Origin: Anaerolineae bacterium
GTDB taxonomy: Bacteria > Chloroflexota > Anaerolineae > Promineifilales > Promineifilaceae
Direction: 5' to 3'
DNA length: 36,905 nt
NCBI GenBank assembly: GCA_015486215.1
Contig: WFSA01000144.1
Location: forward strand, 1-36,905
The translations under genes were made by a program, and so were the position numbers. Below are positions 1 through 36,771 of this stretch, in pieces. Under the pieces are notes generated by a model, which saw nothing but the letters and a program-made list of their open reading frames with translations, was not told the DNA's origin and did no database searches. Numbering within the stretch: the stretch's first letter is position 1; each line of letters starts with the position of its first letter.

Positions 1-60
1 ATTTTACACGAGTACCATTAGGAAAATTTGTCAAGTCTCCCCAGAATACTGAGAAGATAC
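1..60 (+). repeat. Family-1 MITE, copy A (cut by window edge)
   Basis: Right part of a short palindromic element found seven times in the window. It contains the internal AAATTTGTCAAGTC arm and ends in the terminal repeat TGAGAAGATAC. It interrupts the ACCACAAAG-type repeat that continues directly after it. The left end is outside the window. Confidence 0.85.
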
Positions 61-3975: not shown

Positions 3976-4170
3976 TAGGGCGATTGCAACCTCCAAATCG
4001 CACTGTTAAATTCCAAATTTACACCGTTTTTAGCAACTCCGTAATTGACATAACATGTGAATTGCGGGGAATTTATGCGTCATGATTGTCGTGATCGTAT
4101 TTCGTGATCGGTTTTTCGATTTTCGATCACGAAAACGATCACGAATTAAGGCGAGGTTGCAATCGCCCTA
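3976..4170. mobile_element. TA-flanked MITE, copy 1 (about 191 bp)
   Basis: The perfect inverted ends TAGGGCGATTGCAACCTC / GAGGTTGCAATCGCCCTA include a TA dinucleotide on each side, as left by IS630/Tc1-mariner-type transposases. An inner palindrome is built of CGTGATCG / CGATCACG. A near-identical copy in the opposite orientation lies at 24163-24346. It has no coding capacity. It fills most of the gap 3874-4194. Confidence 0.88.
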
Positions 4171-4194
4171 TACAAGGATATTATTGATAAGGTA

Positions 4195-7239: not shown

Positions 7240-7341
7240 GTATCTTCTCAGTATTCTGGGGAGACTTGACAAATTTTCCTAATGATACTCGTAAATAAAG
7301 GCTGATGAAATTTGTCAAGTCTTGTCCACAATATTAAATAC
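7240..7341. mobile_element. Family-1 MITE, copy B, decayed right end
   Basis: Begins GTATCTTCTCAGTA and carries both inner arms GACTTGACAAATTT / AAATTTGTCAAGTC. The expected end TTGAGAAGATAC has decayed to ATTAAATAC. No target duplication can be seen. The rest of the gap 7198-7724 is AT-rich. It holds the only ACGGCCGT copy outside genes (about 7528) and presumably the fhs promoter, which I could not place. Confidence 0.75.
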
Positions 7342-13136: not shown

Positions 13137-13243
13137 GTAACTTCTCAAAAAGTGCTAATTAGGAAAGGAACGAATTTACTCGACTGACATAATTTGTTCC
13201 TTTCTTAATTAGGTGTACTCACCCCGAAATACTGAGAAGATAC
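13137..13243. mobile_element. Family-2 MITE, copy a (107 bp)
   Basis: Starts GTAACTTCTCAAAAAG and ends ACTGAGAAGATAC, nearly the same ends as family 1. Its centre is different: AATTAGGAAAGGAACGAA, then an inverted TTGTTCCTTTCTTAATT. No target duplication was found for this copy. Confidence 0.75.
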
Positions 13244-15149: not shown

Positions 15150-17078
15150 ATGATTGAATTTCTCGCCCTGTTAAACGACGTTTTACAAGCTGTTATCGTC
15201 ATCTTCGGAACTGCCGTCGTCCTCTACCACCTCAGCCGCGCCGCACGCTCTGCCATTATCCGCCCCTTCACCGGCTTGATCGGCTTTGTCGTCATCGTCT
15301 ATCTAGCTGAACTACTCGTCAGCCGCATCCTTAATCCACAATCCGCCCATAGCTGGCTGCGGCTCGAATGGATCGGCATCACCCTCGTCCCCGCCGCCCA
15401 ATTCCACCTCTCCTACGCCCTGCTGGCGACGACAGGAGAGCGAGGCCGCCGCTACTCCCTTTTCGTCTGGAGCAGCTATCTGCTCGGCCTTTCCTTTCTC
15501 ATCCTCGCCCTCTTTACCGATCTCATCGTCGGTGACATCGTACCGTCAAGCCGCGCTCCTCACCTCAGCCGCAGCCCGTTCTTTTGGACATTTACCCTTT
15601 ATTTTTGGATCGTGGCCGCGCTCTCTATGCGAAATGTCTGGCGGGCGCGTGAACGGACATTAACCAGCCTGACCAAACAGCGAATGAGCATCACGCTAGC
15701 CGCCTTTTTAGCTGCTCCCTTAGCCGTTTTTCCCTATCTCATCATCACCGACAGCCGCGGGCAGGACGAATCCGTCTTCTTTTGGATCATCGTCATCGCT
15801 GGCAATTTGGCGGTGGGCGGCATGTTCGCCCTGCTCACCTCCCATCTCGTCTATTTTGATGCCGATTCGCCCGACCGCGTCATCCGCGTACGCCTCTTCA
15901 AATATATGGCACGTGTGCCATTGACAGCGACAACCGTCCTGCTCGTCTACGTCCTCGTCAGCCGCAACGATCCAGTGATGGGGCTGCCGCTGGAAGTGGC
16001 ATTAGGCTTTGCGATGGTGGCGACGGTGATGTTGATGGGATGGGGGATCAATGAGTGGAAACGGCCGTTGGAACGGCTCTTCGCCCTCAACGACAACCCT
16101 GATGTGCGCCGCATACAACAGTTGAGCGAGCGGCTGCTGACGACGAACGACCTGCACCAATTCTTAGAAAGTGTATTGGCCGCAGGCTGTGAAGTGATAC
16201 GGACACCGACCGCCTTTGTCGCCGCCATCACCGCCGAAGGGCCTCAGTTGGAAGCGGTCGTCGGCCATCTCGTCCATCCTGAGACGGCGTTAAAAACGGC
16301 CGATTTGCACCACCTCGCCCAGACAGGAGCGGGCAACGGCGACTATCCTAATTTACGCACGGTCGGCAACTTCATCATTTGGCGCGATTTTTGGCTGCAT
16401 CCGTTATATAATAAAAAGCAGGATTTAATGCTCGGCATTTTTGGCATCCGCGCCCGCGCTGAAGAGCCGGATTTGAGCGAAGAAGAGACGGCCGTTTTTA
16501 GTCGGCTCATCCACCAAGCGGAGTCGGCCTTAGAAGACCGCATCCTGCAGCAAGAGGTATTCGTCACCGTCGAAGGGTTGTTGCCCGAAATTTCAGCCTT
16601 GCAGCAACGGCGGCGCAAAGCGGCGTTTGGCGGCCTGCCCATCCTCACCGCCGAAGATACGCCGCATGACGATTTGCTCACAGATGATCCCGCCTTCAGC
16701 AAGATGGTCAAAGATGCGCTTTCCCATTATTGGGGCGGCCCCAAATTAACGGACAGCCCACTCATACGGCTAAAGATCGTACAACGGGCGTTGAAAGATC
16801 ATGATACGCCGCAGAACGCGCTCCGCGCCACGCTGGTAGACGCGATAGAGCTGCAAAAGCCTGAAAGTCAGCGCAGTATGACCACCAGCGAGTGGATTTT
16901 GTACAATATATTGGAACTGAAATTCCTACAAGGCAAACGGGTACGGGATGTCGCCCGCCGCCTAGCGATGAGTGAATCCGATCTATACCGCAAACAGCGG
17001 ATAGCGATTGAAAATGTAGCCCAAAGCATGAGCCAAATGGAAGAGGCGATCATTAATAATGAAGCATCTTCTCAATAA
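15150..17078 (+). CDS. 7TM-GAF-like-HTH membrane regulator without a kinase domain
   Basis: The 642-residue protein opens with seven to eight membrane helices (residues 1-315), similar in style to the N-terminal 7TM sensor region of some histidine kinases. A GAF-like part follows (about 325-470; YNKKQDLMLGIFGIRARAEEPDLSEEETAVF). The chain ends with a helix-turn-helix-like segment (about 598-625; VRDVARRLAMSESDLYRKQ), similar in style to sigma-70 region 4 or LuxR-type DNA-binding helices. There is no H-box or ATPase domain, so it may be a membrane-bound one-component regulator; this is inference. Its stop codon and last four residues (ASSQ) come from a MITE inserted at 17064. Without the insertion the gene would end ...INNEQ. 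It is likely in an operon with the acetyltransferase. Confidence 0.7.
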   Translation: MIEFLALLNDVLQAVIVIFGTAVVLYHLSRAARSAIIRPFTGLIGFVVIVYLAELLVSRILNPQSAHSWLRLEWIGITLVPAAQFHLSYALLATTGERGRRYSLFVWSSYLLGLSFLILALFTDLIVGDIVPSSRAPHLSRSPFFWTFTLYFWIVAALSMRNVWRARERTLTSLTKQRMSITLAAFLAAPLAVFPYLIITDSRGQDESVFFWIIVIAGNLAVGGMFALLTSHLVYFDADSPDRVIRVRLFKYMARVPLTATTVLLVYVLVSRNDPVMGLPLEVALGFAMVATVMLMGWGINEWKRPLERLFALNDNPDVRRIQQLSERLLTTNDLHQFLESVLAAGCEVIRTPTAFVAAITAEGPQLEAVVGHLVHPETALKTADLHHLAQTGAGNGDYPNLRTVGNFIIWRDFWLHPLYNKKQDLMLGIFGIRARAEEPDLSEEETAVFSRLIHQAESALEDRILQQEVFVTVEGLLPEISALQQRRRKAAFGGLPILTAEDTPHDDLLTDDPAFSKMVKDALSHYWGGPKLTDSPLIRLKIVQRALKDHDTPQNALRATLVDAIELQKPESQRSMTTSEWILYNILELKFLQGKRVRDVARRLAMSESDLYRKQRIAIENVAQSMSQMEEAIINNEASSQ

Positions 17079-17175
17079 ATCGTGAACAAGACTTGACAAA
17101 TTTCATCAGCACCTTATTTTACACGAGTACCATTAGGAAAATTTGTCAAGTCTCCCCAGAATACTGAGAAGATAC
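17064..17175. mobile_element. Family-1 MITE, copy C (112 bp), supplies a stop codon
   Basis: A full-length element from GCATCTTCTCAATAA to TACTGAGAAGATAC, flanked by the perfect 8-bp duplication ATAATGAA (17056-17063 and 17176-17183). Its first 15 bases encode A-S-S-Q-stop in frame with the upstream gene. Confidence 0.9.
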
Positions 17176-17192
17176 ATAATGAACAATAAATA

Positions 17193-19462: not shown

Positions 19463-19478
19463 ATTAACCGCTTCTAAC

Positions 19479-19562
19479 GTATCTTCTCAATAAATCGTGG
19501 ACAAGACTTGACAAATTTCCCTATGAAATTTGTCAAGTCTCCCCAGAATACTGAGAAGATAC
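19479..19562. mobile_element. Family-1 MITE, copy D (84 bp), next to a start codon
   Basis: A short form of the element, with GTATCTTCTCAATAAATCG at one end and TGAGAAGATAC at the other. The inner arms GACTTGACAAATTT / AAATTTGTCAAGTC surround a tiny loop. It is flanked by the perfect 8-bp duplication CTTCTAAC (19471-19478 and 19563-19570). The right end is 10 bases from the next ATG. Confidence 0.92.
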
Positions 19563-19572
19563 CTTCTAACTT

Positions 19573-20181
19573 ATGCAGTTCAACACGCTTATCAATGACA
19601 TTGATAAAAAGTTGCCCGCATCTCCGTTTATACGGCCGCATGGCAGTTTGCTCATCATGGCTGGATTGCCCGGCGCAGGCAAATCGTCCATCGTCAAACA
19701 GTTGGCCGCGTGGTGTGATTTCGTCGTCATTCAGACAGACAGCGTGCGGAAATGGACGAGCGACAACCCTAATTACAGCATCGGCGGTACCGCTTCCGTG
19801 TACGATATTTGTTATGCCCTCATCGCCAAACGATTACGGCATGGCGAGCGGGTCATCTTTGATGCCACCAATTATTTGCAAGCACGCCGCCAGCGAGCGA
19901 TGGATTTAGCCGGATTAGAAGGGTCAGCCTTAGCCATCTGCCGCGTGCAAGCGTCTCAACAGGAGACGTATAAACGGTTGGCGGCACGCGAGCAAGAACG
20001 GGAACTGTCAACCTCCGATGCCGATTGGGTCGTCTACCAATGGATGGTCGAACAGCAAGAGCCGTTGACCGCTCCCCATCTCATTCTCGACAGCAGCGAC
20101 ACCCCCGCACTCACCTTAGCGCATGAACTATACAGATATTGGATGAAAGCGGAAGAAGATACTCCACAAAAACAGAAATAA
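19573..20181 (+). CDS. P-loop nucleotide kinase (AAA_33 / zeta-toxin-like fold)
   Basis: The 202-residue protein has Walker A GLPGAGKSS at about residue 35, then a likely catalytic/Walker B-type segment VIFDATNYLQARRQRA and QQETYKRLAAREQ, as in polynucleotide-kinase-like and zeta-toxin-like ATP-binding proteins. The phosphorylated substrate is unknown, and no antitoxin-like gene is adjacent, so a toxin role is not supported. The start lies 2 bases after the target duplication of a MITE and has no Shine-Dalgarno site. The lipid kinase gene begins 43 bases downstream and may share its transcript. Confidence 0.75.
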   Translation: MQFNTLINDIDKKLPASPFIRPHGSLLIMAGLPGAGKSSIVKQLAAWCDFVVIQTDSVRKWTSDNPNYSIGGTASVYDICYALIAKRLRHGERVIFDATNYLQARRQRAMDLAGLEGSALAICRVQASQQETYKRLAAREQERELSTSDADWVVYQWMVEQQEPLTAPHLILDSSDTPALTLAHELYRYWMKAEEDTPQKQK

Positions 20182-21233: not shown

Positions 21234-21317
21234 GTATCTTCTCAGTATACTGGGAAGACTTGACAAATTTCCCTATGAAATTTGTCAAGTCTTGTCCACG
21301 ATTTATTGAGAAGATAC
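21234..21317. mobile_element. Family-1 MITE, copy E (84 bp)
   Basis: Runs from GTATCTTCTCAGTATACTGG to TTGAGAAGATAC with the same inner arms as copy D. There is no target duplication; its right side joins an ACCACAAAG-type repeat whose first few bases are missing, so a deletion probably followed insertion. Confidence 0.85.
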
Positions 21318-21434
21318 TCAGCCATTATCCAAATTGACCACAAAGAGACGAAGAACACGAAGTTTTTTAAGATTTTCTTTGTGATCCTTGCTTCTTTGTG
21401 GTGAAATAATTGATAGGCTGAGTAGTTACCTTTC
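21318..21434. repeat. ACCACAAAG-type repeat, left end trimmed
   Basis: It matches 24363-24482 closely: TCAGCCATTATCCAAATT at the left, GGCTGAGTAGTTAC at the right, and an imperfect internal inverted pair ACCACAAAG / CTTTGTGGT. Confidence 0.75.
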
Positions 21435-23002: not shown

Positions 23003-23145
23003 GACATGGTTCATTTTATGCGAAATAATCTTTACACTTTGTGGGCGGGCATAAGGCCGCGCCCCTACAATTTACTCCTATAGGGGCGATTTTTATGGTT
23101 GCCCAATCACGCAACAACTGTAAAGATGATTTTCACCATTTTGAA
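23003..23145. repeat. Family-4 element, inverted and cut by a family-2 element
   Basis: Begins CGACATGGTTCATTTTATGC and runs to CACCATTTTGAA, where the expected AACCATGTC end is replaced by the GTATCTTCTCAAAAAG start of a family-2 element. A reading frame open across it is made of repeat DNA. Confidence 0.65.
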
Positions 23146-23232
23146 GTATCTTCTCAAAAAGTTGGGGACATGAGTACAATGGATTGGGAAAAGAACAGAT
23201 TTACCCGACTGACGCAATTTGTTCCTTCCTTA
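23146..23232. repeat. Family-2 element, partial
   Basis: Shares GTATCTTCTCAAAAAGTTGG and the centre CCGACTGACGCAATTTGTTC with copies at 13137 and 29183. Its right end is missing; family-3 and family-6 pieces (GGCCATTCATG, then GTCATTCCCG to about 23408) follow. Confidence 0.6.
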
Positions 23233-23254
23233 AGGCCATTCATGAAAAATAATT

Positions 23255-23870: not shown

Positions 23871-24101
23871 ATAAGGCCATTTCTAAATTTAAATCATCCA
23901 AAACTTTGATTGTCATTCCCCATCCCCACCTTCGTGAGGATAGGGAATGACAAACATATAATTATTTTTCATAAATGGCCGTATCTTCTCAATAAATCGT
24001 GGACAAGACTTGACAAATTTCATCAGCACTTTATTTTACACGAGTACCATTAGGAAAATTTGTCAAGTCTCCCCAGAATACTGAGAAGATACAAATGGCC
24101 T
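23871..24101. repeat. Family-3 element with inner family-6-like block, split by a family-1 MITE
   Basis: The left end AAGGCCATTTCTAAATTT and the right end AATGGCCTA are those of the 65-bp family-3 palindrome. A GTCATTCCCC...GGGAATGAC insert widens the middle. The family-1 MITE at 23981-24092 lies within its right end. Confidence 0.7.
23981..24092. mobile_element. Family-1 MITE, copy F (112 bp)
   Basis: A full-length element flanked by the perfect 8-bp duplication AAATGGCC (23973-23980 and 24093-24100), which is the end of a family-3 repeat. It is nearly identical to copy C. Confidence 0.92.
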
Positions 24102-24162
24102 AACATAAATACGGCAATTATACCCATTATAATCATAGGGCAATTACACCCTCATCTTTTAC

Positions 24163-24346
24163 TAGGGCGATTGCAACCTCGCCTTAATTCGTGATCGAAA
24201 ATCGAAAAAACCGATCACGAAATACGATCACGACAATCATAACGCATCAATTCCCCGCAATTCACATATTATGTCAATTGCGAAGCTGCTAAAAACGGTG
24301 TAAATTTGGAATTTAACAGTGTGATTTGGAGGTTGCAATCGCCCTA
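24163..24346. mobile_element. TA-flanked MITE, copy 2 (about 180 bp, inverted)
   Basis: Same perfect terminal repeats as 3976-4170 but in the opposite orientation, with TA at both edges. It lacks one short CGATCACG-containing unit of the inner palindrome, so the two copies differ by about 11 bases plus a few substitutions. Confidence 0.88.
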
Positions 24347-24362
24347 ATTATAATCAATGGTG

Positions 24363-24482
24363 GTAACTACTCAGCCATTATCCAAATTAACCACAAAGAC
24401 ACGAAGAACACGAAGTTTTTTGAGATTTTCTTTGTGATCCTTGCTTCTTTGTGGTGAAACGAGTGATAGGCTGAGTAGTTAC
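24363..24482. repeat. ACCACAAAG-type palindromic repeat, full copy
   Basis: Ends GTAACTACTCAGCC / GGCTGAGTAGTTAC form a 14-bp perfect inverted pair, with inner ACCACAAAG / CTTTGTGGT. It completes the gene-free stretch 23822-24515. Confidence 0.75.
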
Positions 24483-28962: not shown

Positions 28963-29015
28963 GTATGATTACCTCAATGAAAATATGTGTAGAATCGTAA
29001 CGACTAAGGAATAAG

Positions 29016-29165
29016 GACATGGTTCAAATTAGGGTAAATCATCTTTACAGTTATTGCGTGATTGGGCGACCATAAAAGTCGCCCCTACGGGAATAAATTG
29101 TAGGGGCGCGGCCTTGTGCCCGCCCTCAACCTGTAAAGATCATCTTGCGTAAAATGAACCATGTC
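29016..29165. mobile_element. Family-4 MITE (GACATGG ends), copy b (150 bp)
   Basis: GACATGGTTCA to TGAACCATGTC, flanked by GGAATAAG / AGAATAAG (29008-29015, 29166-29173; seven of eight match). It is one layer of the nested stack upstream of clpC. Confidence 0.82.
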
Positions 29166-29182
29166 AGAATAAGGATTAAATA

Positions 29183-29304
29183 GTAACTTCTCAAAAAGTT
29201 GGGGGCATGATTACAGCTAATTAGGAAAGGAACGAATTTACTCGACTGACGTAATTTATTCCTTTCCTAATTGATTGTAATCACCCCGAAATATTGAGAA
29301 GATA
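29183..29304. mobile_element. Family-2 MITE, copy b, last base displaced by the next element
   Basis: GTAACTTCTCAAAAAG at the left. The right end GAGAAGATA is completed by a C at 29425, beyond the family-1 insertion. Its 8-bp target duplication ATTAAATA is found at 29175-29182 and 29426-29433, which spans both elements. Confidence 0.85.
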
Positions 29305-29416
29305 GTATCTTCTCAGTATTCTGGGGAGACTTGACAAATTTTCCTAATGGTACTCATGTAAAATAAAGTGCTGATGAAATTTGTCAAATCTTGTCCACGA
29401 TTTATTGAGAAGATAC
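29305..29416. mobile_element. Family-1 MITE, copy G (112 bp)
   Basis: Inserted into the right end of the family-2 element, with duplication AGAAGATA / AGAAAATA (29297-29304, 29417-29424; one mismatch). It faces opposite to copy F. With the repeats above it fills the 630-base gap 28963-29592. Confidence 0.87.
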
Positions 29417-29510
29417 AGAAAATACATTAAATACTATCCTAAACTTCAATTTGTCATTCCTAAATTGTCCAGCAATAAAAATTGCCTGAACGATGCCCCA
29501 TTAAAACACA

Positions 29511-33876: not shown

Positions 33877-34040
33877 GACATGGTTCAAAATGGTTGAAAA
33901 TCATCTTTACAGTTGTTGCGTGATTGGGCGACCATAAAGGGGCGACCACAAGGGTCGCCCTACAGGAGTAAACTGTAGGGGCGCGGCCTTGTGCCCGCCC
34001 ACAACCTGTAAAGATCATTTCGCATAAAATGAACCATGTC
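33877..34040. mobile_element. Family-4 MITE (GACATGG ends), copy c (164 bp)
   Basis: GACATGGTTCA to TGAACCATGTC with the perfect 8-bp duplication AAAATGCC (33869-33876 and 34041-34048). This is the clearest copy. It is the main content of the gene-free stretch 33416-34114 besides the gene remnant and hairpins. Confidence 0.9.
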
Positions 34041-34077
34041 AAAATGCCATTATTTGCGTCATTATAACACACGCACC

Positions 34078-36705: not shown

Positions 36706-36771
36706 TAAGGCCATTTCTAAATTTAAATCACCCAAAATTTTGATTGTCATTATTCTTCATGAATGGCCTAA
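36706..36771. repeat. Family-3 palindromic repeat
   Basis: A near-identical copy of 2543-2607 (TAAGGCCATTTCTAAATTT ... CATGAATGGCCTAA). CGCAGAT-type repeat pieces flank it to about 36838. No gene is visible from 36645 to the window end. Confidence 0.75.

Follow-up and report, generated by a model that had tools for sequence, protein, structure and literature searches.

Family-1 elements in the window

The window, by which we mean the whole 36,905-nt stretch of DNA analysed here, contains seven copies of a short palindromic element that we termed family 1, located and sharing ends as the original prediction had claimed. The end motif GTATCTTCTCA occurs 27 times in the window when up to two mismatches are allowed, compared with 7.1 expected from shuffles. 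Copy c3 (17064–17175, plus strand, 112 bp) lies between two copies of ATAATGAA (17056–17063 and 17176–17183). Copy c4 (19479–19562, plus strand) is an 84-bp form with a shortened loop, flanked by CTTCTAAC at 19471–19478 and 19563–19570. Copy c6 (23981–24092, plus strand, 112 bp) has inserted into the end of a different repeat; its left duplication, AAATGGCC at 23973–23980, is the end of a TCAT(A/G)AATGGCCT repeat, and its right duplication, also AAATGGCC, occupies 24093–24100. Copy c7 (29305–29416, minus strand, 112 bp) is nested in the right end of a different element, f2c, and its duplication carries one mismatch (AGAAGATA at 29297–29304 on the left, AGAAAATA at 29417–29424 on the right). 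The three perfect 8-bp duplications (c3, c4 and c6) and the single imperfect one (c7) are those originally described. Among the remaining copies, c5 (21234–21317, minus strand) is an 84-bp form without a duplication that borders a GTAACTACTCAGCC element from which the first 8 bases are missing, c2 (7240–7341, minus strand) has one decayed end, and c1 (1–60, plus strand) is represented by its right part only, the left being cut by the contig start, and adjoins a GTAACTACTCAGCC-type element. A Pfam scan of the 18 long open reading frames in the window detected no transposase, again as predicted.

The 15th base of c3 completes the stop codon of the reading frame at 15150–17078 (GCATCTTCTCAATAA), so that this gene apparently owes its 3' end to the insertion. 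Between the end of copy c4 and the ATG of an AAA_33-type reading frame there are 10 bp (19563–19573), leaving little space for the ribosome site of that frame.

Three further elements, absent from the original prediction, have the same terminal 11 bp as family 1 but a different interior; we termed these family 2. The element f2c (29183–29425, plus strand, consisting of 29183–29304 plus C29425) has the same ends as family 1. The element at 13137–13243 (plus strand) has the ends GTAACTTCTCA / TGAGAAGATAC and no duplication left. For the one at 23146–23250 (plus strand) the left end alone is recognisable and the right limit is approximate.

Copy number and placement in the genome

The assembly from which the window was taken consists of 4.13 Mb in 341 contigs. 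Searching it with GTATCTTCTCAGTAT, allowing up to two mismatches, gave 632 matches on one strand and 642 on the other, whereas the reversed control gave 2 and 1. Because either end of one copy can match GTATCTTCTCAGTAT, the strand counts fit approximately 640 copies. Sixty contigs picked by number, without regard to content (606 kb), contained 103 similar loci, which extrapolates to about 700 copies per genome. Family 1 is thus estimated at about 640–700 copies, or approximately 1.7% of the DNA. A 970-kb sample of this genome yielded 156 two-ended copies, of which 120 are 112 bp long, 13 belong to a divergent 114-bp subfamily and few measure 84 bp. The two sizes originally reported, 84 and 112 bp, therefore describe the window; genome-wide the 112-bp form dominates and the 84-bp form is rare. 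At 84–114 bp, gene-free and bounded by the terminal inverted repeats GTATCTTCTCA / TGAGAAGATAC, the copies have the form of a MITE.

The copies are mostly intergenic, with 154 of the 156 outside long reading frames, though such frames cover 80% of the sequence. Their orientation with respect to neighbouring genes is unbiased (26:26 and 16:16 in tandem gene pairs). Approximately ten family-1 copies lack their first 19–20 bases (L032, L041, L042, L047, L226, L239, L244, L272). This recurrent left truncation falls at position 19–21 and several such copies are fused with neighbouring repeats, for which deletion near the abutting ends is likely. An exact-pattern scan of viral contigs gave no match.

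Direct evidence of insertion

Perfect flanking repeats of 8 bp are present in 89 of the 156 two-ended copies, compared with 0–3 copies for any of the other lengths between 3 and 13 bp, and 23 of the 156 have 8-bp duplications with one mismatch. Empty sites were identified by comparisons within this one genome. Removing c7 together with one duplication restores the f2c end TGAGAAGATAC and exposes f2c's own perfect duplication, ATTAAATA, at 29175–29182 and 29426–29433. Copy c6 splits the end of a AGGCCATTTCTAAATTTAAATCA...ATGAATGGCCT repeat (23874–23985) whose intact copies (2544–2605 and 36708–36769) also stand in the window. Four elements are inserted in the loops of family-1 copies, with the duplication AGTATCAT, and 146 loops are uninterrupted. 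These empty sites inside other repeats show insertion directly. The target is AT-rich, with T at positions −6 to −4 (0.53–0.62) and A at the mirrored places, and with G adjoining the duplication (0.42).

Duplications thus abound in the genome outside the window, and together with the empty sites they bear out the original claim of mobile MITEs with 8-bp target duplications. Nor do distant relatives all carry copies at the corresponding places: in ten genomes of the same taxonomic family, the end motif was found in 1/10, 1/9 and 1/10 genomes at three orthologous neighbourhoods, counted as presence rather than same-site position, the genes compared being 40–73% identical.

The inner palindrome covaries

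The 15-bp inner helix was analyzed in 20 representatives, 18 of them distinct, and is paired in 99.3% of cells. Five of the 15 pairs are changed on both sides. Double changes occupy 20 cells compared with 6.1 in shuffles (0 of 500 shuffles reached this number) and slid controls collapse. The shuffle figure should not be read as a probability, because the representatives were chosen to cover the subfamilies and related rows lack independence; what stands independently is the five different double changes.

The covariation could reflect selection on a hairpin, selection on a protein site, or hairpin-templated correction. Quasipalindrome repair is a known mutation mechanism, and correction of this kind during replication, rather than selection, is quite possible as the source of the matched arms, though we lean against it. 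The half-changed forms are as it would leave them, 14 copies with GAGTTG/CAAGTC standing beside 5 with GAGTTG/CAACTC; however, private mutations in single copies are mostly uncorrected. Templated correction also leaves unexplained why a MITE family with other ends should have a near-identical arm motif. This second family, found in the related genome G010 (72 pattern matches), has arms AGATTTGTCAAATTT, identical to those of family 1 at 13 of 15 positions, and ends GTAACTATTCAGG / GTAACTATACAGC, which are those of a canonical IS66 element (L062); 8-bp duplications flank L352, L353 and L354. The arm motif common to the two families weakly favours selection on a hairpin or protein site over correction. 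A bolder reading, which we consider rather improbable, is that the inner palindrome AGAYYTGWCARRTTT is a separate functional module (hairpin or protein-binding site) that helps MITEs to spread and has become joined to the ends of two different IS66-like helpers. If so, helper recognition and amplification would be separable.

Age of the burst and distribution among relatives

The 117 copies of 112 bp analyzed differ from their consensus by 2.3% on average, or 1.3% without the subfamily columns. Comparing the two members of each duplication gives a divergence of 3.1% of sites, approximately 1.5% per copy. The rough agreement of these two clocks suggests a burst about 1.5% substitutions ago followed by near-neutral decay. 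The movement that the original prediction called recent is so in a relative sense: the two divergences indicate that the burst does not belong to the last few generations.

Genomes of the same taxonomic family carry these ends in other MITEs. The whole family-1 element is present in G010 and G012, which belong to other genera, with best copies 84–90% identical (84–87% in G012), and in G014 at 72%. The copies in these relatives have their own intact duplications. The proteins of G010, G012 and G014 are 40–73% identical to those of the window, and noncoding identity of 84–88% exceeds what simple vertical descent would be expected to preserve. Judged from these identities, transfer between lineages or constraint on the element is likely.

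These data also bear on whether the copies are domesticated repeats, such as terminators, promoters or REP-like sites, held by selection rather than recent transposons. Their intergenic placement, the covarying hairpin and a TTGACA in most arms are all compatible with such a role. Against it, they show no strand bias, which argues against a promoter or terminator function; their consensus divergence is close to the duplication-decay prediction, so that single copies look close to neutral; and they are not retained at orthologous sites in the three neighbourhoods compared. We regard domestication as very improbable.

An IS66-like transposase as the probable helper

The original prediction had left the driver unknown, listing ISL3, IS256 and IS66 as families that fit, and had proposed a search for a full insertion sequence with these ends. 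A PF03050 search of the genome itself gave no match over threshold, and the lack of a canonical IS66 at first spoke against this family; a relic was later found with a query derived from G012. In G012, a truncated IS66-type C-terminus lies approximately 30 bp from TGAGAAGATAC, and contig edges carry its N-terminus. The corresponding relic in the window's own genome encodes 119 C-terminal residues of a transposase (C263:1862–2218) and is followed by TGAGAAGATAC; its end, of the GTATCTTCTCAAAAA.. subtype, resembles family 2 more closely than family 1. A full 528-aa transposase query detected the relic alone in this genome at E values up to 10, so that the helper appears lost or unassembled. An intact helper may be missing from the assembly or may have been lost since. 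Assembly collapse of a many-copy helper was considered and rejected: repeats stand at 68 of 144 contig ends, family 1 at only 4, and no fragments were found beyond the relic, though one unassembled copy stays compatible with the data. In G012 and G065, many contigs break off within IS66-like elements bearing these ends (for example L080, L092 and L109), suggesting that multi-copy helpers collapsed in those assemblies.

Complete single-ORF elements were found in other Chloroflexota. They are 1.84–1.87 kb long and have the ends of family 1 and perfect 8-bp duplications. One of 1866 bp is flanked by duplicated AGTGACAT, has ends GTATCTTCTCAATA...GGGG and contains one transposase frame; another of 1835 bp is flanked by duplicated TGCAGATG, with the same ends and a broken frame. 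The MITE thus shares its ends with autonomous elements (L128/L137 and L134/L142), the family-1-type end pair being GTATCTTCTCAATAAATCG / GTATCTTCTCAGTATTCTGGGG, and the likeness does not extend beyond about the outer 22 bp. When named genomes were scanned, relatives were located in Anaerolineae, cyanobacteria, Proteobacteria and others. Records of Nostoc, Dolichospermum and Okeania contain related elements that have perfect 8-bp duplications and GTATC..CTCA ends, and Bacteriovoracaceae elements with GAATCTATTCA ends were counted as distant relatives only.

The transposases score 49.4 and 42.5 bits against PF03050, over the cut-off of 23.1, as expected of an IS66-type DDE enzyme, and in alignment with canonical IS66 the helper has the conserved D (position 208) and E (449). 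With one transposase gene, ends beginning in GTA and 8-bp duplications, the complete elements resemble the single-ORF, ISBst12-like group of IS66. In contrast, the NCBIfam IS66 model NF033517 gives 120 bits against a cut-off of 180, and the transposase forms a branch separate from canonical IS66 in a quick tree. The ends of IS66 are usually given as GTAA. The helper has GTAT (GTATC..CTCA), compared with GTAACTATACAGG, GTATTTGTTTA or GTAACCGTTCAG for canonical IS66 in the relatives, two of which likewise begin with GTAT or GTAC. We therefore name the helper IS66-like and assign it to a divergent branch. Of the candidates first listed IS66 stands, and the driver can now be named as IS66-like; the complete elements proposed for the search exist in other Chloroflexota, with the relic alone in the genome itself.

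We consider it highly probable that family 1 is a non-autonomous miniature transposon moved in trans by a divergent IS66-like transposase. The element is gene-free and has terminal repeats of the 22-bp class (GTATCTTCTCA, then GGGG after a short spacer) enclosing an inner palindrome with a short loop. The transposase, supplied in trans, would bind these ends and excise or copy the element. The target, AT-rich and mostly intergenic, would be cut with an 8-bp stagger, preferably where TTT...AAA stands mirrored on the outer sides of the cut, and gap repair after insertion would produce the 8-bp duplication. We infer that an IS66-like class of transposase moved these copies; the helper has presumably since been lost or is unassembled here, and the chemistry would be as proposed. 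ISL3, IS256, IS1595 and IS6 also make 8-bp duplications, but that one of them drives the MITEs and the IS66-like ends are coincidental is hardly credible, even with no intact IS66-like transposase in the assembly, as the ends match over approximately 22 positions including the spacing to GGGG, the duplication length is equal in independent complete elements of several phyla, and these terminal 11 bp recur on the single relic detected.

Comparison with known elements

Like ERIC of Photorhabdus luminescens and the Correia elements of Neisseria, family 1 is short, gene-free, palindromic, intergenic and present in hundreds of copies. ERIC reaches 711 copies in P. luminescens, a high count (2024 review, PMC10969869), and that review does not mention IS66. 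Unlike these two, family 1 keeps intact 8-bp duplications in most copies, and the class of insertion sequence supplying its ends is identified. MITECca01 of Cardinium cOegib, derived from IS982, has 169 copies and makes up 3.5% of the chromosome (PMC9769881). It too outnumbers its parent and lies mostly in intergenic DNA and in other mobile elements; its parent IS982 is still intact, whereas the IS66-like parent of family 1 is apparently lost. No link between an IS66-like helper and MITEs was found in the open-access literature searched, and we provisionally regard the link as new. With about 650–700 copies in a 4.1-Mb genome, family 1 is in the range of the largest bacterial counts that we found reported. 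Its insertions can be dated by duplication decay, and with its many empty sites, its target consensus and its naturally varying arms it is well suited to studying how a bacterial MITE comes to amplify and what follows the loss of its helper.

Other repeats in the window

Elements with GTAACTACTCAGCC ends, IS66-like in form, are located at 24363–24482, 21315–21429 and 61–118; the first is flanked by CAATGGTG/TAATGGCG. A repeat family of the form GACATGGTTCA...TCTTTACAGTT...CTGTAAAGAT occurs at 290–404, 23003–23154, 29014–29170 and 33878–34045, and its members, up to approximately 150 bp long, are palindromic with a variable middle. A long inverted pair (3976–4179 and 24154–24346) contains GGGCGATTGCAACCTCGCC and matches over 141 bp at 95% and 44 bp at 91%; 25 bp of it have 28 near copies in the genome sample.
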